DNA of 25,075 nucleotides, taken from positions 1 through 25,075 of the IMG/VR virus record IMGVR_UViG_3300034987_000053; one strand, written 5' to 3'. Numbering within the stretch: position 1 is the first letter of the stretch; every line of letters begins with the position of its first letter. The notes beneath the pieces are model-generated. The model had not been told where the DNA came from, made no database searches, and saw nothing but the letters and a program-made list of their open reading frames with translations. Source of the DNA: a virus. The position numbers and the translations under genes were made by a program. This document shows, piece after piece, positions 6,666 to 25,021 of this stretch.

Positions 6666-6687
6666 ATCAAAAATGTCAACAAAAAAA

Positions 6688-6713
6688 GTGAGAAAATTAA
6701 CGCATCTATAATG
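6688..6713 (+). promoter_or_regulatory. Repeated TATAAT promoter, copy 1 (GTGAGA-N13-TATAAT)
   Basis: A perfect TATAAT (6707-6712) is preceded at 13 bases by GTGAGA (6688-6693). The same arrangement occurs at 6966 and 8150, with GTGAGAAAA, then a variable patch, then CATCTATAATGA conserved. There is no good TTGACA-like -35 box at 16-18 bases. It reads into the 57-residue membrane protein at 6743. Inference: a host sigma70-type promoter that may need an activator bound at the GTGAGA box. Confidence 0.72.
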
Positions 6714-6729
6714 ATATAACGTCATATCA
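6712..6729 (+). promoter_or_regulatory. Operator-like palindrome over presumed start site, copy 1
   Basis: TGATAT (6712-6717), a 6-base spacer, then ATATCA (6724-6729). The palindrome starts on the last base of the -10 box and covers the expected +1. A matching element with a paired base change exists at 6990-7007, which suggests the symmetry is selected. It may be a repressor site; an RNA role is less likely because +1 would fall in the middle. Confidence 0.5.
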
Positions 6730-6948: not shown

Positions 6949-6965
6949 AAAACTATGTTATAAAA

Positions 6966-6991
6966 GTGAGAAAATTATAGCATCTATAATG
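6966..6991 (+). promoter_or_regulatory. Repeated TATAAT promoter, copy 2
   Basis: GTGAGA (6966-6971), 13 bases, TATAAT (6985-6990). The stretch GTGAGAAAATTA is identical to copy 1, and CATCTATAATGATA is also identical. It reads into the 65-residue membrane protein at 7041. Confidence 0.72.
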
Positions 6992-7007
6992 ATACAATAA
7001 AGTATCA
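6990..7007 (+). promoter_or_regulatory. Operator-like palindrome over presumed start site, copy 2
   Basis: TGATAC (6990-6995), a 6-base spacer, GTATCA (7002-7007). Compared with copy 1 the inner pair has changed from T-A to C-G while symmetry is kept, and the spacer sequence differs. Position relative to TATAAT is the same in both copies. Confidence 0.5.
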
Positions 7008-7754: not shown

Positions 7755-8153
7755 ATGATTGAAGCAGTAATGTGTCTAGCTCTAAATATGTTCTTTGAAA
7801 CAAGGCACGAGGGTCCAGTTGCTCAAATGCTTGTTGCAGAGGTAACAATGAACCGAGTTAATGATCCTCGGTTTCCTAATGATATTTGTAGTGTAGTCTG
7901 GCAAAATAAACAGTTTAGCTGGACTCACGATGGTAAGTCTGATAACCCTGAAAACATGAGTTATCTTGATAGACAAGCTTGGGATCAGACTAAACGCTTA
8001 GCTCAAGAGCTTTACGACAACCCTCGCCTGTTACCAATTACAGGTGCAACTCACTATCATGCTAAGTATGTAAAACCATACTGGGCAATAGCTGACGATA
8101 TAGAACAAGTAGCTCACCATGGTGATCATATTTTCTATGTCTGGAAAAAGTGA
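7755..8153 (+). CDS. SleB-type cell wall hydrolase, probable endolysin (132 aa)
   Basis: The protein matches the compact Hydrolase_2 (SleB/CwlJ) pattern. CLALNMFFETRHEG has the likely catalytic Glu at residue 15. QMLVAEVTMNRV follows, then ICSVVWQNKQFSW (45-56), DRQAW, GATHYHA (97-103), PYWA and GDHIFY (123-128). This family cleaves the glycan strand of peptidoglycan, so release of progeny is the likely job. No signal peptide is visible, so a holin would be needed; the two-helix protein at 7285 is the candidate. The ATG follows GGAG in the end of the preceding gene. Its TGA stop lies inside the GTGAGA box of promoter copy 3. Confidence 0.87.
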   Translation: MIEAVMCLALNMFFETRHEGPVAQMLVAEVTMNRVNDPRFPNDICSVVWQNKQFSWTHDGKSDNPENMSYLDRQAWDQTKRLAQELYDNPRLLPITGATHYHAKYVKPYWAIADDIEQVAHHGDHIFYVWKK

Positions 8154-8175
8154 GAAAACTAACACATCTATAATG
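8150..8175 (+). promoter_or_regulatory. Repeated TATAAT promoter, copy 3, overlapping the hydrolase stop codon
   Basis: GTGAGA (8150-8155), 13 bases, TATAAT (8169-8174), in the same arrangement as copies 1 and 2. The TGA inside GTGAGA is the hydrolase stop codon (8151-8153). No TGATAY/RTATCA palindrome follows here. It reads into the 24-residue membrane peptide at 8197. Confidence 0.7.
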
Positions 8176-8196
8176 AACAAACCTATGGAGGATAAA

Positions 8197-9143: not shown

Positions 9144-9302
9144 ATGGTTTTAACAATTTCCCTATTGTATTTGTTTTTGTTTCAAGGGGAAATTATTATT
9201 AATGTTTCTAAAGAGTATAAGGGTCGAAAGACAAAGCCTTATGAACAGAAAGATATTAATGACCGAAAAAACAATACTAGAAAGTTTAACAGAAGATCTT
9301 AA
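9144..9302 (+). CDS. Possible small protein overlapping RNA polymerase start (52 aa)
   Basis: ATG 9144 follows AAAGGA at four bases and runs to TAA 9300-9302. It encodes a hydrophobic start (MVLTISLLYLFLFQGEIIIN) and a very basic tail (KGRKTKPYEQKD, RKNNTRKFNRRS). It overlaps the RNA polymerase frame by about 100 bases in another frame. The ribosome site is better than that of RNA polymerase, so it may be a leader gene that delivers ribosomes to the polymerase start. It may also be a chance frame; the extensive overlap lowers confidence. Confidence 0.4.
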   Translation: MVLTISLLYLFLFQGEIIINVSKEYKGRKTKPYEQKDINDRKNNTRKFNRRS

Positions 9303-11430
9303 GTATCGGCAGTCCCTTTTAGACAAAAGACAAGCAGCTAGCTTTCTAATAGAAATGAAAGCAGAAGACATAGTATCTTTTTCTTATACACATGTCCTAA
9401 AGGGTCTAGAAAGAAAAGCAACATTAGTTGAAGTTGCGAGTAATATTGGAAGGAGGCTACGACAAAAGCTACGTCAAAAACAGGATAGCGTATTAGATGT
9501 TCAGGGTGGCTGGTTTGTTCTAATTAGCTATATTGAGCTTGGTATTTTAGGTTATCGAAAAAAGCACACTTATCGAAACGGTAAAAAAGATAAACATCGA
9601 TCATACTTCTTATATGCAAAAGACTGGAAAGCCATTAAAGAGTTAATGGATCAAGTTGACAATGAAAAGTGTGACTTGTTCCCTGTTAATGTTCCAGCAG
9701 CTGATTGGACTCAGGAGGCTTATCATCGAGAAACAGGAATAAGCATAATTAAGAAAGGATACGAAGGAGCTATAAAAGCTTACGAGAATAATGATATGTC
9801 TTATATCATTGATACCCTTAATAAACTTAATCACACTGGTTGGCGTATTAATGCGCCTGTTTTCGAAGTATATAAGCAATGTATGAAGACTAAAGACAAT
9901 CCTTTTAAGTTTACAAAAGAGATTGATCCAATTAAAAGAGCTTCGTTAATTATTGAAGCGGAGGCAATACAAAGGTTAGCGGAGAAAAATCTTGACAAAA
10001 CCTTTTACCACTTATACAACCTTGATTTTCGAGGGCGAATCTACCCAAATACCGCCTTCTTACATGAACAATCCTCAGACAACGCAAAGGGACTCCTTCT
10101 CCTCGATGAACCCGTTGCTCTTGGATCTGAAGGTTTATACTGGCTCAGTGTTCACACCGCCAACGTCTGGGGTAATGACAAGGTATCACTTGATGACCGT
10201 GCGCAATGGGTCAACGATAACATGGATAGTATCCTAGACTATGCCAGCGACCCAATGCAAAACAAAGGCTGGATGAAAGCAGATAAGCCTTTTAGCTTTC
10301 TAGCAGCTTGTTATGAGTTTTCTATGCTATCTAACTGGCATGGTGACGGGTATGCAACAGAAAACTTCCCGAGTTGTTTACCTGTATATATTGACGGTTC
10401 TAATAACGGTGTTCAACACCTTGTAGCTATGTCTCAAGATGATGAAGTAGCACCTCTTGTTAACCTTGTTCCAAGTGAACTTCCAGGTGATGTTTACATG
10501 TTTATCGCTGAAAAAGTGTGGGATCGCCTTGAAGAAAGAGTTAACAAGTTAGAACCTGAGATTAAGAATAAGTTTGATGAAGTCTATCAGACAGCTATTA
10601 AGCTACAGACAGAATACAACAATGCACCTGATAAGTCAGAGCGTAAAGCACTAGCTTTTCAGGAAGCACAAAAGTGGAGAAATCAAAACAGAGATCTTCG
10701 TGAAAAACTATTCCCTGTATACTGGCATAATATTCAAGACAAGAAAATACAACGTAAGACTGTTAAACGTAATGTTATGACATTGGGTTACGGCGGTACT
10801 TCTTACGGAATGGGCCAGCAGGTAATTGAAGACACTCGTGATATTTCTGAATATTTACGAGACAAAGAACACTTATGGGGCGCTATGTTAGGTGCCCTTG
10901 TGTATCAAACTTGCTACGAGGAACTCAAAGGACCAGCAGCCATGCTAAGGCTTTTCCAGACCGTCGCTGAGCGGGCAAATAGTAGAAAAGAGCATATGCA
11001 CTGGTTCTCGCCTATAACCGGGTTCCCTGTAGTCCAAGCCTATCGTAAACCGACAACTAAACGTACAGAGTTGAAGTATGGTGATGATATCATCAAGGTA
11101 CAACTTCAAGTATGGGAAGAAACAACGGTTAACGAGAGTAAACAGAAAACAGGCGCTGCACCTAATATTGTGCATAGCCTAGACGCTGTTCACTTAACTA
11201 TGTGTATACATGATGCGACTTATCCGGTAACAGTTGTCCATGATTCCTTCGGGTCTCATGCTGGCAATATGGATAAGATGTTTTATCATGTTAGGCAGAA
11301 GTTCGTAGAACTTTATGAAGCTAACCCTTTAGAGAATATTCTAGAACAGCTTCACTCCCTAGACTTAATCCCAGAGAAAGGAACACTAAATGTCCGGGAT
11401 GTACTCCAATCAGACTTTGCTTTCGCTTAA
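9202..11430 (+). CDS. T7-like single-subunit DNA-dependent RNA polymerase
   Basis: This 742-residue enzyme should transcribe the phage's own promoters. The catalytic set is complete: DFRGRIYP (275-282), IDGSNNGVQHL with D398 (T7 D537), KTVKRNVMTLGYGG with K522, R523 and Y530 (T7 K631, R632, Y639), APNIVHSLDAVH with H658, and VVHDSFG with D681 (T7 D812). It ends DVLQSDFAFA; the last four residues match the T7 C-terminal foot. The specificity-loop region lies near 610-645. It is about 140 residues shorter than T7, mostly at the N-terminus. ATG 9202 has AAGGGG twelve bases upstream; Met14 (9241) and Met20 (9259) are alternatives. The strong terminator at 9079 lies just upstream. Base composition rises locally near 10080-10200 and 10920-11050. 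Confidence 0.96.
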   Translation: MFLKSIRVERQSLMNRKILMTEKTILESLTEDLKYRQSLLDKRQAASFLIEMKAEDIVSFSYTHVLKGLERKATLVEVASNIGRRLRQKLRQKQDSVLDVQGGWFVLISYIELGILGYRKKHTYRNGKKDKHRSYFLYAKDWKAIKELMDQVDNEKCDLFPVNVPAADWTQEAYHRETGISIIKKGYEGAIKAYENNDMSYIIDTLNKLNHTGWRINAPVFEVYKQCMKTKDNPFKFTKEIDPIKRASLIIEAEAIQRLAEKNLDKTFYHLYNLDFRGRIYPNTAFLHEQSSDNAKGLLLLDEPVALGSEGLYWLSVHTANVWGNDKVSLDDRAQWVNDNMDSILDYASDPMQNKGWMKADKPFSFLAACYEFSMLSNWHGDGYATENFPSCLPVYIDGSNNGVQHLVAMSQDDEVAPLVNLVPSELPGDVYMFIAEKVWDRLEERVNKLEPEIKNKFDEVYQTAIKLQTEYNNAPDKSERKALAFQEAQKWRNQNRDLREKLFPVYWHNIQDKKIQRKTVKRNVMTLGYGGTSYGMGQQVIEDTRDISEYLRDKEHLWGAMLGALVYQTCYEELKGPAAMLRLFQTVAERANSRKEHMHWFSPITGFPVVQAYRKPTTKRTELKYGDDIIKVQLQVWEETTVNESKQKTGAAPNIVHSLDAVHLTMCIHDATYPVTVVHDSFGSHAGNMDKMFYHVRQKFVELYEANPLENILEQLHSLDLIPEKGTLNVRDVLQSDFAFA

Positions 11431-11614
11431 AGAAGGCGATGTAGTCCATATTAAAGCGTTTGATGACATGCCAAAGTCTCGTATGCGTGTTCAAGAAGTA
11501 ATTGAAGACGCAGTTACGGGTATGGTCTTGTTTGAAGGAGACGATATGGAAGAGTATGGCGAACTGTATGCCGATGACTTCAATTTGGTAGAACATATTG
11601 AAATCAATATCTAA
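11390..11614 (+). CDS. Hypothetical small acidic protein (74 aa)
   Basis: It starts MSGMYSNQTLLSLKEGDVVH and ends FNLVEHIEINI. The pattern KEGDVVHIKAFDD, MRVQEVIED, GMVLFEGDD suggests a small beta-barrel (SH3-like), which is inference from strand spacing only. It overlaps the end of RNA polymerase by 41 bases and has AAAGGA eight bases upstream, so it is probably translated from the same mRNA. Its TAA stop lies inside the phage promoter at 11611. In T7-like phages this position often holds small regulators, but no family is recognised. Confidence 0.7.
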   Translation: MSGMYSNQTLLSLKEGDVVHIKAFDDMPKSRMRVQEVIEDAVTGMVLFEGDDMEEYGELYADDFNLVEHIEINI

Positions 11615-11638
11615 ATAATACCTGACGTTAAAGAACAA
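11611..11638 (+). promoter_or_regulatory. Candidate phage RNA polymerase promoter 1 (before SSB)
   Basis: CTAAATAATAC (11611-11621) followed by CTGACGTTAAAGAACAA. It is identical at 27 of 28 bases to 19457-19484. TAATAC (11616-11621) sits 17 bases before G 11633, the same geometry as the T7 promoter, whose -17 to -12 is also TAATAC. Transcripts from G 11633 would have a 44-base leader before the SSB gene. Assignment is inferred from repetition, intergenic place and the polymerase gene next door. Confidence 0.7.
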
Positions 11639-11676: not shown

Positions 11677-12210
11677 ATGGCTATTTTGAAAAATGTTGAA
11701 CTGTGGTTTGCTAAACTGGACCCAAAGAAACCCAATGCTATGTTTGATAAAGAGTACCCAACATGGGAAGTCCAGATTCGTACTCGTGATAAAGCACAAG
11801 CTAAGTCATGGAAAGACCTAAAGATCAACGTAAAGCCTGATGAAGATGATGATGGTGTATTCTACAAAGCTACACTAAAGAAGAAATCAAAGAAGCGTAA
11901 TGGTGAACCTCAAAACCCAGTTGATCTAGTTGGTGGTGATCTTTCAAAGGTTGACCCAAACAAACTAGGTAACGGTTCTGTAGGTAATGTTCGTATTTAT
12001 CAGTATGAATACAACGTAGGTGGCCGTACAGGCATTGCTTCTATGCTTATGGCTGTTCAAGTAACAAAGCTTAAAGAGTATGAGCCTAAGCCTCGTGAAG
12101 ATGAGTTTGAAATGACTGATATGGAGGTCATTAAAGTAGCCGACAACCAAGTGGTAGACGATGATCAATTATCATTAGAAGATGATCTAAACGACGAAAT
12201 CAACTTCTAA
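11677..12210 (+). CDS. T7 gp2.5-like single-stranded DNA-binding protein
   Basis: The 177-residue protein begins MAILKNVELWFAKLDPKKPN and has the OB-fold pattern of the gp2.5-like SSB group: YPTWEVQIRTRD, a basic middle with KATLKKKSKKRNGEPQNPV, DLVGGD, and GNVRIYQYEYNVGGRTGIASMLMAVQV. The tail is very acidic and ends DDLNDEINF, with a terminal aromatic residue as in gp2.5, where this tail contacts DNA polymerase and helicase. It should coat ssDNA during replication and recombination. Its size is below T7 gp2.5 (232). AAGAGGAAA precedes the ATG, and the candidate phage promoter lies 39 bases upstream, suggesting strong middle expression. Confidence 0.85.
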   Translation: MAILKNVELWFAKLDPKKPNAMFDKEYPTWEVQIRTRDKAQAKSWKDLKINVKPDEDDDGVFYKATLKKKSKKRNGEPQNPVDLVGGDLSKVDPNKLGNGSVGNVRIYQYEYNVGGRTGIASMLMAVQVTKLKEYEPKPREDEFEMTDMEVIKVADNQVVDDDQLSLEDDLNDEINF

Positions 12211-14296: not shown

Positions 14297-14665
14297 ATGG
14301 CAATAGCAGTATATTGGAATCTTCATAAAGATTGTTTTTCAATACAGTCCCGTGAGAAAGATACATATGGTCGAGTAATTCACCATGTTAACTCAGTAGT
14401 AATTTCATTACCAAAGTTTGTTGTTAGACAAGCTGGACGAGAAAAGGTCTTAAAAGAAGGTAAAAAGAATGTACACGCTTTTGTTGTAGGTGAGTTTTGT
14501 GCTTCACCTTACCACTTGTTTACTCAGGGGCGCAGGGTGACATATAATCCCTATAAATATAACAGCTTTGTAATAGCTGACACTAAAGAACCAATATACA
14601 ACGGATTACTAGCGGTTCTTCAGACTAAAGACAACAAACCACAAATGGAGGTTTACTATGGGTAA
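14297..14665 (+). CDS. Conserved phage protein of unknown function, NLHKD type (122 aa)
   Basis: The product starts MAIAVYWNLHKDCFSIQSRE, followed by GRVIHHVNSVVISLPKFVV and AGREKVLKEGKKNVHAFVVG. From memory, the combination NLHKDxxS, GRVxxH, and GRxxVxxxxKKNVHAFVxG recurs in many phage and prophage proteins with no assigned function; this recollection was not checked by search. Alternating strands suggest a compact beta fold. AGAGG lies upstream; the gene starts one base after the previous stop and overlaps the next by eight bases. Confidence 0.72.
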   Translation: MAIAVYWNLHKDCFSIQSREKDTYGRVIHHVNSVVISLPKFVVRQAGREKVLKEGKKNVHAFVVGEFCASPYHLFTQGRRVTYNPYKYNSFVIADTKEPIYNGLLAVLQTKDNKPQMEVYYG

Positions 14666-19456: not shown

Positions 19457-19484
19457 CTAAATAATAGCTGACGTTAAAGAACAA
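19457..19484 (+). promoter_or_regulatory. Candidate phage RNA polymerase promoter 2 (before exonuclease)
   Basis: CTAAATAATAG followed by CTGACGTTAAAGAACAA. It differs from the element at 11611 at one of 28 bases. TAATAG (19462-19467) lies 17 bases before G 19479. A transcript from that G would have a 20-base leader holding the AAAGGAG of the exonuclease gene. Intergenic and near-identical to promoter 1. Confidence 0.72.
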
Positions 19485-19498
19485 ATAAAGGAGCTATT

Positions 19499-20209
19499 AT
19501 GATAGCAATTATTGATGGTGATGTTCTTGTTTATATTAGCATTTGGAATGCTCAATCACTAGAAGAAGCAAGAACTAATTTTGATGAGTTGTTTACAGCT
19601 ATCAACGAAGAAATCTTTGCAGAAGACTATGTAATGGCCCTTGGTGGTCCTAACAACTTTAGATTAGATATTTATAGTGAATATAAGGCTAATCGATCAA
19701 AGTCAAAATCCACTCGACCAGAATGGTTTGATGATTTGAAGTCTGGTATTGTAAATGATTACGATGGTTGTATTTTTACTGATAACTGTGAAGCTGACGA
19801 TATGGTGCGTACTTGGGCAGAAGAATGCCGAGGTAAAAAGCCATTTGTTGTCGTTACTGTAGACAAGGACTTAGACTGCGTAGAAGGATTACATTACAAT
19901 CCTCGTAAAAAAGAAACATACACAATTGAGCCAAGCTATGCAAATAAGCATTATTGGAAACAAATTCTTATGGGAGATTCTACAGATAACATTCCCGGTG
20001 TCCCCGGTATTGGTCCAAAGAAAGCAGATGATCTTTTAGAAGACTCTGAAGATTATATTTCTGCTGTTTGTAGTGCTTATCATAATTATTATGGTGAACA
20101 AGGCTATGAGTATATGTTAGCTAATGCTCGTCTAATTCATATTTGGCGGCATATTGGTGATCATTTTAAATTTACAAGGGAACGTTATGACAATGCTATC
20201 GAAGAATGA
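19499..20209 (+). CDS. T7 gp6-like 5'-3' exonuclease (FEN family)
   Basis: The 236-residue protein has the metal-binding residues of the 5' nuclease family in order: IIDGD (D6, D8), CEADDM (E98, D100, D101), VDKDLD (D122, D124), and MGDSTDNIPGVPGIGPKKA (D160, D163, then the helix-hairpin-helix at 167-176). It should remove RNA primers and 5' flaps and help break down host DNA, as gp6 does in T7. AAAGGAG precedes the ATG. It is the first gene after candidate phage promoter 2 and heads the unit with the GIY-YIG nuclease and primase/helicase. The N-terminal IDGDVLVYIS is typical of the phage branch. Confidence 0.93.
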   Translation: MIAIIDGDVLVYISIWNAQSLEEARTNFDELFTAINEEIFAEDYVMALGGPNNFRLDIYSEYKANRSKSKSTRPEWFDDLKSGIVNDYDGCIFTDNCEADDMVRTWAEECRGKKPFVVVTVDKDLDCVEGLHYNPRKKETYTIEPSYANKHYWKQILMGDSTDNIPGVPGIGPKKADDLLEDSEDYISAVCSAYHNYYGEQGYEYMLANARLIHIWRHIGDHFKFTRERYDNAIEE

Positions 20210-22985: not shown

Positions 22986-24851
22986 ATGGACGCTTATAGA
23001 AGTTTTATCCACCTGTCACGCTACTCACGTTTTCTAGATGATAAAGGTCGTCGTGAAACATGGGAAGAGACAGTAGATCGTGTCATTAACTTCTGGAAAG
23101 ATATGCAAGGTGACAAGCTTAAAGATAGTGAGTTTGAAGAACTACGCCAAGCTATTCTAAATCACGAAGTAATGCCTTCTATGCGATCAATGTGGTCTGC
23201 AGGTGAAGCTCTTAAAAAGAATCACTTCCGAGGCTACAATTGTAGCTTTAAATCTGTAGACCATCCCCGAGTATTTGATGAAATTCTTTTCATTCTTATG
23301 GCAGGTACTGGTGTTGGTTTTGGCTGTGAAGCTAAAGACGTAAACAAACTGCCAATTATTAACGACACGTTTACTAAGACTGAACGTGTTATTGCTATAG
23401 AAGACTCAGCAGAAGGCTGGGCTAAAGCACTACGTAAGCTAATCGCTGATTTATATTTAGGGAATGAGCATGAATGGGATTATAGCAAAATTCGGCCTGA
23501 AGGCGCTAGACTTAAGACTATGGGTGGACGAGCTTCTGGTCCGAAACCACTTATGGATCTTTTTGCTTTTGTAACAGAAACATTTAAGAAAGCAGCGGGT
23601 CGAAAACTACGTCCAATTGAGGTCCATGATATTGTATGTAAAATTGCTGAAATCGTTGTTGTAGGCGGTGTTCGTCGTTCTGCTCTTATTTCTATTTCAG
23701 ACCTTGGTGATCCTGAAGTTCGTGACTGTAAGTCAGGGCGTTGGTGGGAAACAGCACCTCATCGTGCTCTTGCTAACAACTCCGCAGGTTATGAACAAAA
23801 GCCTTCTATGGCTGTATTCATGGATGAGTGGACAGCACTTATGAAGTCTGGCTCTGGTGAACGTGGTATTGTATCTCGTTATGGTTTGCAAGCTATGGCA
23901 CCAGAACGCCGTGATGCTGATCAGATTGTTGGCCTTAATCCTTGTGCAGAAATTGCGCTACGAGATGGTCAGCTTTGTAACCTTACTGAAGTAGTATGTC
24001 GTGAAAATGACACTCATAAGGATTTAATTCGTAAAGTACGTCTTGCAACAATTCTCGGTACACTTCAAGCTTCACTGACTGATTTCAAATATGTTCGTTC
24101 TGTTTGGAAAAAGAACTGTGAAGAAGAAGCACTATTAGGTGTGTCTTTAACTGGTATTCAAGATTGTAAGATTCTGCGTAATCCAGATCCAAAGCTACTT
24201 GAAGCCATGAAAGCTCACGCTTATGAAATTAACAAAGAGTATGCTGCTCGTATTGGGATTAACCCTTCTGCTGCTATTACCACTGTTAAGCCTTCTGGGA
24301 CTGTTTCTCAACTAGTAGATTCAGCCTCTGGTATTCATGGTCGATTTGCTCCTTATTACATTCGTCGTGTTCGTCAGGCTAACCACGATCCTTTAACACA
24401 AATGCTAAAAGATCAAGGTGTACCTAGTGAACCTGATGTAATGAATCCTTTAAAGACTACTGTGTTTAGTTTCCCAATTAAATCACCTGCTGGCGCTACA
24501 TTAGCTAATAATCAAACAGCTATTGAACAGCTAGAAAACTGGTTACTATTTAAGAAATACTGGGCAGAACATTCAGTATCAGTAACTGTATATGTAAAAG
24601 ACCACGAATGGCTTGATGTAGGTGCTTGGGTATACAAACACTTTGACTATGTAACTGGTATTAGTTTCCTTCCATACTCAGAGCATACATATCAACAAGC
24701 ACCATACGAAGATATTAATGCTATGGAATATGATAAGCTTGTAGCTGAAATGCCTGTAGTTGACTTTAGCAAGCTATCTGAGTATGAACAAGAAGATAAC
24801 ACAGAAGGTGCTCAAACACTAGCTTGCGCAGCTGGTGGCTGTGAAATTTAA
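22986..24851 (+). CDS. nrdJ: Class II (adenosylcobalamin-dependent) ribonucleotide reductase
   Basis: This 621-residue monomeric class II enzyme reduces ribonucleotides to deoxyribonucleotides for phage replication, using B12 to form the thiyl radical. Active-site parts are visible: YNCSF with C86, LNPCAEI (317-323) with N318, C320 and E322, QLCNLTEV with C331 as reaction partner of C86, VKPSGTVSQLVDSASGIHGR as the phosphate-binding loop region, and a C-terminal CxxxxC (C614, C619) that would pass electrons from thioredoxin. It fits the monomeric Lactobacillus-type triphosphate reductase branch common in phages. AAGGAAT precedes the ATG. Because B12 is required, the host must make or import it. 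Its stop is shared with the DUF1289 start and candidate promoter 3. Confidence 0.95.
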   Translation: MDAYRSFIHLSRYSRFLDDKGRRETWEETVDRVINFWKDMQGDKLKDSEFEELRQAILNHEVMPSMRSMWSAGEALKKNHFRGYNCSFKSVDHPRVFDEILFILMAGTGVGFGCEAKDVNKLPIINDTFTKTERVIAIEDSAEGWAKALRKLIADLYLGNEHEWDYSKIRPEGARLKTMGGRASGPKPLMDLFAFVTETFKKAAGRKLRPIEVHDIVCKIAEIVVVGGVRRSALISISDLGDPEVRDCKSGRWWETAPHRALANNSAGYEQKPSMAVFMDEWTALMKSGSGERGIVSRYGLQAMAPERRDADQIVGLNPCAEIALRDGQLCNLTEVVCRENDTHKDLIRKVRLATILGTLQASLTDFKYVRSVWKKNCEEEALLGVSLTGIQDCKILRNPDPKLLEAMKAHAYEINKEYAARIGINPSAAITTVKPSGTVSQLVDSASGIHGRFAPYYIRRVRQANHDPLTQMLKDQGVPSEPDVMNPLKTTVFSFPIKSPAGATLANNQTAIEQLENWLLFKKYWAEHSVSVTVYVKDHEWLDVGAWVYKHFDYVTGISFLPYSEHTYQQAPYEDINAMEYDKLVAEMPVVDFSKLSEYEQEDNTEGAQTLACAAGGCEI

Positions 24852-24871
24852 TGCCTGACGTTAAAGAACAA
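24849..24871 (+). promoter_or_regulatory. Candidate phage RNA polymerase promoter 3, overlapping stop and start codons
   Basis: TAATGC (24849-24854) then CTGACGTTAAAGAACAA (24855-24871). The 17-base core is identical to promoters 1 and 2; TAATGC differs by one base from TAATAC. The TAAT box holds both the reductase stop and the next ATG. Transcripts from G 24866 would lack that ATG and serve the genes from 25004 on. Confidence 0.6.
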
Positions 24872-25021
24872 CTTACTCCTTGTATAAGAGTATGTCGTCT
24901 AGAAGGTGCCTACTGCAAAGGGTGTGGTAGGCACCAAGACGATATTCGTATGTGGTCTACTTATAGTAATGAACAACGTAAACAAATTATGAAAGAGATA
25001 TCTAATGGCACGTATCACTAA
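24851..25021 (+). CDS. DUF1289 cysteine-rich protein (56 aa)
   Basis: The product starts MPDVKEQLTPCIRVCRLEGA. The whole DUF1289 pattern is present: TPCIRVCRLE, YCKGCGR (21-27), DDIRMWSTYSNEQRKQIM. C11, C15, C22 and C25 could bind zinc or iron. Bacterial relatives are small proteins of unknown function, sometimes linked to oxidoreductases. Following the reductase, a redox or metal-delivery role is possible, but that is inference. Its first seven codons are also the candidate promoter 3 core. It overlaps the reductase by one base and the next gene by 18. Confidence 0.82.
   Translation: MPDVKEQLTPCIRVCRLEGAYCKGCGRHQDDIRMWSTYSNEQRKQIMKEISNGTYH

Follow-up and report, generated by a model that had tools for sequence, protein, structure and literature searches.

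Short directional repeats in the genome of an uncultured marine phage are, very probably, promoters for the T7-type RNA polymerase that the phage itself encodes at 9202-11430. The repeats, their positions, their conservation in relatives and their covariation with the polymerase were observed directly, the most interesting result being that the promoter bases change from one phage group to another together with residues of the polymerase specificity loop. Judging from sequence, these elements are a new promoter family within the known class of T7-type promoters, and the literature search returned no paper on these promoters or on loop-promoter covariation. The window, i.e. the whole stretch of DNA analysed, corresponds to the whole IMG/VR fragment of 25,075 bases; as it is only a fragment, the complete-genome test was run on relatives.

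As proposed in the initial annotation, a 28-base repeat located before the SSB gene (11611-11638, CTAAATAATACCTGACGTTAAAGAACAA) recurs before the exonuclease gene (19457-19484) with a single difference, TAATAC being replaced by TAATAG. Three exact copies of its 17-base core, CTGACGTTAAAGAACAA, begin in the window at 11622, 19468 and 24855, and the last one (24855-24871), also announced at the outset, has TAATGC directly upstream. When up to three mismatches are allowed, the core has 5 matches in the window against 0.15 expected from dinucleotide shuffles, none of the 100 shuffles reaching five; the two additional weak copies, at 8086 and 14571, are both intragenic. The spacing of 17 bases between TAAT and a G holds, base for base, at G 11633, 19479 and 24866. 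The elements and the neighbouring genes are as follows, promoters being numbered along the window.

11616 to 11638, + strand: predicted promoter 1 (-17 to +6), TAATACCTGACGTTAAAGAACAA, predicted +1 G at 11633.
11677 to 12210, + strand: SSB-like ORF, downstream of promoter 1 and adjoining the promoter in relatives.
14571 to 14593, + strand: likely fourth, intragenic promoter, TAATAGCTGACACTAAAGAACCA, +1 G at 14588.
19462 to 19484, + strand: predicted promoter 2 (-17 to +6), TAATAGCTGACGTTAAAGAACAA, predicted +1 G at 19479.
19499 to 20209, + strand: 5'-3' exonuclease (Pfam 5_3_exonuc_N, PHROG 107), downstream of promoter 2.
24849 to 24871, + strand: predicted promoter 3 (-17 to +6), TAATGCCTGACGTTAAAGAACAA, predicted +1 G at 24866.
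24851 to 25021, + strand: DUF1289 ORF (Pfam DUF1289, 4.5e-16), whose first codons, MPDVKEQ, contain promoter 3.

The gene labels originally given to the exonuclease, DNA polymerase, RNR and RNA polymerase are borne out by family matches in Pfam and PHROGs. The SSB label is backed by gene position and by an acidic, F-ended C-terminus, but the ORF at 11677-12210 has no match in Pfam or PHROGs. Besides, no Rfam match was found within the window.

Beyond the window, viral contigs hold the 17-mer core in at least 119 stretches, a few of which resemble chance matches in unrelated phages. The consensus of 173 aligned sites reads -14 TA[C/G]CTGACGTT[A/T]AAGAA[C/T]AA +6, conservation running from -14 to +6, and exhibits the frame of T7-type promoters, with an A/T-rich stretch at -17 to -13, specific bases at -11 to -7, a T/A-rich stretch at -4 to -1 and a purine at +1. 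The TAATAC of copy 1, originally put forward for its identity to T7, is indeed present but TAAT is not a conserved signal, since -17 to -15 are merely A/T-rich across the 173 sites. In long relatives (up to 60.8 kb), copies were found as expected of a promoter family, mostly in intergenic and orthologous positions, and in the same order, i.e. before SSB, before the exonuclease, after RNR and then in the terminase/portal/tail region, where the TTTAAGAATAA form of the site lies about 1.5-3.5 kb ahead of the terminase, two sites precede the portal gene in G004 and further sites lie close to the junction of phoH and tail fibre and ahead of the tape measure. Several coding-strand copies thus precede genes along the genome in these relatives, as they do in the isolate DSS3_VP1. 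Close matches in long relatives are on the coding strand, except for one G004 site with 3 mismatches (GCTGACGTTAAAGAAGAG, G004r 16029, in L127-L130), which is oriented against the other sites. Of note, in G001 (L137/L138) and L040 the exonuclease promoter has its place within the coding region, some 50 bases from the start of the exonuclease gene, the usual upstream copy being absent, and a relocation of the promoter into coding sequence is possible. Some late sites (G010r 5590, G014r 25808 and 35126, G009 23839), which precede tail and other late genes, carry GAAGGG or GAAGGA from +1 versus GAACAA or GAATAA, and such starts may mark promoter classes.

Regarding individual sites, the predicted start of promoter 1 lies 44 bases upstream of the SSB-like ORF and the site is kept in those long relatives in which the SSB gene is present, while that of promoter 2 lies 20 bases upstream of the exonuclease, the equivalent place being occupied in most long relatives. 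Promoter 3 overlaps the stop codon of RNR as well as the start of DUF1289, and the long relatives containing the RNR end have a site after RNR, with or without DUF1289; as an RNA from 24866 would be devoid of the ATG at 24851, this promoter would serve later genes rather than DUF1289. The copy at 14571 sits within an L5 gp82-like gene (14297-14665), with a predicted start at 14588, 70 bases ahead of an ORF at 14658, and is likely a fourth, intragenic promoter site. The division of the replication region by three sites, as first envisaged, is therefore to be amended: the copies do exist but the site at 14571 would be added to them and the third has its start inside DUF1289.

It is unlikely, though less so than the other alternatives considered below, that mere coding coincidences account for the intragenic copies, namely the one at 14571 and copy 3 where it overlaps DUF1289. 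In frame, the core reads ADTKEP or PDVKEQ, the TA at -14/-13 of the 14571 copy is missing from some relatives, and the copy at 8086, kept in none of the relatives, was rejected as a promoter and attributed to chance. At 14571, however, the codons GCT GAC ACT (or ATT) AAA GAA are kept in 12 of the 13 distinct relatives encoding AD[T/I]KE, each with a chance of about 0.04 under the codon usage of the window, despite proteins that are only 48-67% identical to that of the window; the rarer GAC is among the kept codons, whereas GAT is used by relatives that lack the AD pair and have DT at that place. As for copy 3, relatives in which no DUF1289 was detected also have a site at its position.

The enzyme to which these elements are here ascribed is described by two features.

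9202 to 11430, + strand: single-subunit T7-type RNA polymerase, 742 aa (Pfam RNA_pol PF00940, 4.5e-88; PHROG 414, 2.4e-139).
11041 to 11124, + strand: specificity beta-hairpin, residues 614-641 (model strands 614-626 and 629-641).

The polymerase thus has the RNA_pol domain, the fold and the specificity hairpin of T7-type single-subunit enzymes. An AlphaFold model built on close relatives only had a pLDDT of 41, a diverse alignment being needed for a usable one; with 26 diverse relatives in the alignment, the AF2 model reached a pLDDT of 88 and a pTM of 0.84, and matched the T7 RNAP-promoter complex 1cez with a Z of 35.1 (rmsd 4.0, 654 residues, 29% identity). Independent MAFFT and phmmer alignments agree in equating the hairpin residues R621, E623, I630 and K632 with T7 residues 746, 748, 756 and 758. 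In two relatives (L020 and L052), the polymerase gene aligns in two parts about 0.45 kb apart, with query residues overlapping at 511-529, which suggests that the gene carries an insertion such as an intron.

Polymerase relatives were collected by profile search down to 46% identity, and in many groups where both genes are available one 20-mer, identical or nearly so, stands both upstream of SSB and upstream of the exonuclease. In divergent groups the shared 20-mers have the same geometry but a different sequence; the SSB-side site was found in nearly all of them, no promoter being recognised in the L219-L221 group. A fixed regular expression with C at -7 failed in the divergent groups because -7 itself varies, and an unguided repeat search returned mostly ribosome-binding sites. 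Promoters were thus chosen by a pattern leaving -11 to -5 free, with DSS3_VP1 and L180 assigned by hand and with the -10 to -8 bases of DSS3_VP1 differing among its own copies; most motifs are nearly specific to the locus of their own group. The resulting set comprised 27 groups (23 marine groups together with T7, T3, K11 and SP6), i.e. 22 residues by 8 bases or 176 pairs.

By mutual information, the top three of the 176 pairs were 758/-8 (z 11.3), 746/-7 (8.6) and 748/-11 (6.8), 756/-9 being also linked (4.0), though these permutation z-scores ignore relatedness and are inflated, as some near-relatives of the window were counted as separate groups. At -8, residue 758 goes with A when K (13/14), C when R (6/6), T when Q (3/3) and G when E/D (3/3); at -7, residue 746 goes with C when R (18/18), A when Q (3/3) and G when E/D (3/3); at -11, residue 748 goes with C when E/D (11/12), G when K/R (7/8) and T when L/Q/S (5/5); and R756 goes with C at -9 (6/6). 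Residue 746 contacts -7 in the T7 complex. The other three covarying residues (748, 756 and 758) coincide with published T7 contacts, namely N748 with -10/-11, R756 with -9 and Q758 with -8 (PMC5937735), and the N748D substitution switches T7 polymerase to T3 specificity (PMC11477551). When the loop was left out of the tree, 7 of the 8 changes at -8 fall on branches where 758 changes (p 7e-6, the best of the 176 pairs); in this crude parsimony test only 758/-8 was clearly significant and 748/-11, 756/-9 and 746/-7 were not, so that of the four covarying pairs matching -11 to -7 to the cognate loop, one alone is tree-significant.

According to the code read from these pairs, residue 758 would set -8 (K:A, R:C, Q:T, E/D:G), 746 would set -7 (R:C, Q:A, acidic:G), 756 would set -9 (R:C, aliphatic mostly G) and 748 would set -11 (acidic:C, basic:G, L/Q/S:T). 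This code was fixed from the first groups, before the remaining ones were read, and forecast 22 of 27 bases correctly in the latter; for five groups more distant from the training set (L195, L197, L200, L201 and L208), 10 of 15 were right, the forecasts for L195 and L197 being mostly wrong. The forecast for L207 was also wrong at -8. In L204, whose polymerase is 80% identical and has L at 748, TAGTGGACGTTAAAG stands at two sites in place of TACCTGACGTTAAAG, and by this comparison the window phage and L204 are a near-minimal natural polymerase-promoter pair. We consider it somewhat more probable than its contrary that the T7-type recognition code of marine phages is largely readable and that the specificity of closely related phages such as these two was switched via 748, which would make them mutually deaf in transcription.

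It is very improbable that the repeats are operators, or promoters for the host RNA polymerase with another factor. Short directional conserved elements before genes would look alike, and another repeated element of the window, the early one, does carry a TATAAT box. This early element is, however, clearly distinct from the repeats and located before the polymerase gene, the repeats themselves have no -10/-35 boxes, and their bases change with the specificity loop of the phage polymerase across groups, which a host factor would not explain. Slightly less probable still is that the repeats act in RNA or in replication, as a processing site, a leader motif or an origin, with transcripts starting elsewhere: conservation does reach downstream to +6 and, in T7-type phages, promoters can also serve as replication starts, but the best-correlated positions are upstream of +1 and linked to residues that contact the promoter in T7, and -17 to -13 are A/T-rich as in T7-type promoters. 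Orthologous recurrence and covariation with the loop at T7 contacts thus support the reading first advanced, namely a promoter family of T7 geometry serving the polymerase of the phage itself.

Regarding promoter function, binding, start point and timing at the elements are what we infer from these data. The specificity hairpin would read -11 to -7 (C T G A C), with an upstream contact to the A/T-rich stretch around -17 to -13; TAAA at -4 to -1 would open and the RNA would start at the G of AAAG, giving a transcript beginning with GAACAA. The host polymerase would first transcribe the early region together with the phage polymerase gene, and the phage polymerase would then fire the units that begin ahead of SSB, within 14297-14665, ahead of the exonuclease and at the RNR end and, in relatives, also those before terminase, portal and tail genes.

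Two further conserved elements were observed. The early element, GTGAGAAAA-N8-TCTATAATGA, is present at 6684-6714, 6962-6992 and 8146-8176 of the window and is common to the DSS3 phages, with a spacer of exactly 8 in 42/42 distinct copies found. It has a TATAAT box and no -35 box, and is probably a host-polymerase early promoter, with the GTGAGAAAA box at a position that an activator might occupy. Besides, the TTTAAGAATAA promoter form of the relatives is directly followed by a conserved leader of about 170-220 nt, upstream of the terminase and beyond the window end, as exemplified in three records.

L131, 12408 to 12598, - strand: leader.
L141, 8751 to 8931: leader.
L018, 7530 to 7770: leader.

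A long-range helix of 12 bp is perfect in 19 of the 20 distinct copies of this leader; it shows compensatory variants (CCAAAGTGATAC, CCTAGAAGATAC and CCTAAAAGAGAT), the C5/C6 and G5/G6 runs are matched, and the GACATC or GGTACT of the loop has its counterpart further downstream in GATGTC or AGTACC, a pairing judged by eye. With no Rfam family match in three of the records, it is probably an undescribed structured RNA.

With the promoter family comes a transcription plan that can be tested, in a widespread group of marine phages that are uncultured and whose closest isolates have drawn attention chiefly through their uracil-containing DNA. With some two dozen natural polymerase-promoter pairs bearing different loops, covariation makes specificity prediction from the loop testable at the bench, and these pairs are candidates for mutually independent expression systems.

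Among known systems, the nearest isolate polymerases are those of DSS3_VP1 and DSS3_PM1 (57% identical over 97%), roseophages with dU-DNA in Naomviridae, Noahvirus. These phages share with the window a similar gene order and the same early element, and the window phage may belong to Naomviridae. They have their own diverged promoter family, TAGG[GT][GT][GA]CGTTAAAG, with the geometry of the window family; in DSS3_VP1, the repeats obtained by unguided count resolve to TAGGNNNCG[T/C]TAAAG, and TAGGNNNCGYTAAAG is found 14 times, always on the + (coding) strand, against 0.06 expected in shuffles, 8 of these 14 copies being intergenic in a genome that is 6% intergenic. The DSS3_VP1 and window families share TA at -14, CG[T/C]T at -7 to -4 and AAAG, and differ mainly at -11 to -8; unlike the window, the DSS3 phages have G at -11 with K at 748, their RNA would start with GAGGGGG in many copies, and alpha and beta RNR subunits are annotated versus a single RNR. 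A search of the window group at an E-value of 1e-5 did not detect the DSS3_VP1 deaminase.

The cyanophage Syn5 is likewise a marine phage with a single-subunit polymerase and its own short promoter (ATTGGGCACCCGTAA; PMC3950665), but this promoter is different and single for the genome, whereas the window family has several copies. T7, T3 and K11 have in common with the window family the -17 to +6 frame, the A/T-rich start, C-7, T-4 A-3 and the +1 G, and T3 also has an acidic residue at 748 with C at -11; their -11 to -8 sequence differs, they start with GGG instead of GAA, and T7 and T3 have Q758 and T-8, unlike the window. The initial view that the rest of the element differs from T7 thus stands for -11 to -8, but the recognition bases turn out closer to SP6: compared by sequence, the -14 to -7 stretch is closer to that of SP6 (TAGGTGAC) than to T7. 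The SP6 promoter (ATTTAGGTGACACTATAGAAG) shares the geometry, T-14 A-13, T-10 G-9 A-8 C-7 and +1 GAA, and the SP6 polymerase, like that of the window, has a lysine at or next to 758 with A at -8, this column shifting between alignments because the SP6 loop is shorter. What separates the two is C at -11 with E748 in the window versus G at -11 with R748 in SP6, GT versus AC at -6/-5 in the main copies, as well as a much shorter polymerase in the window and a genome of siphovirus type (tape measure, long tail genes) rather than of Autographiviridae.
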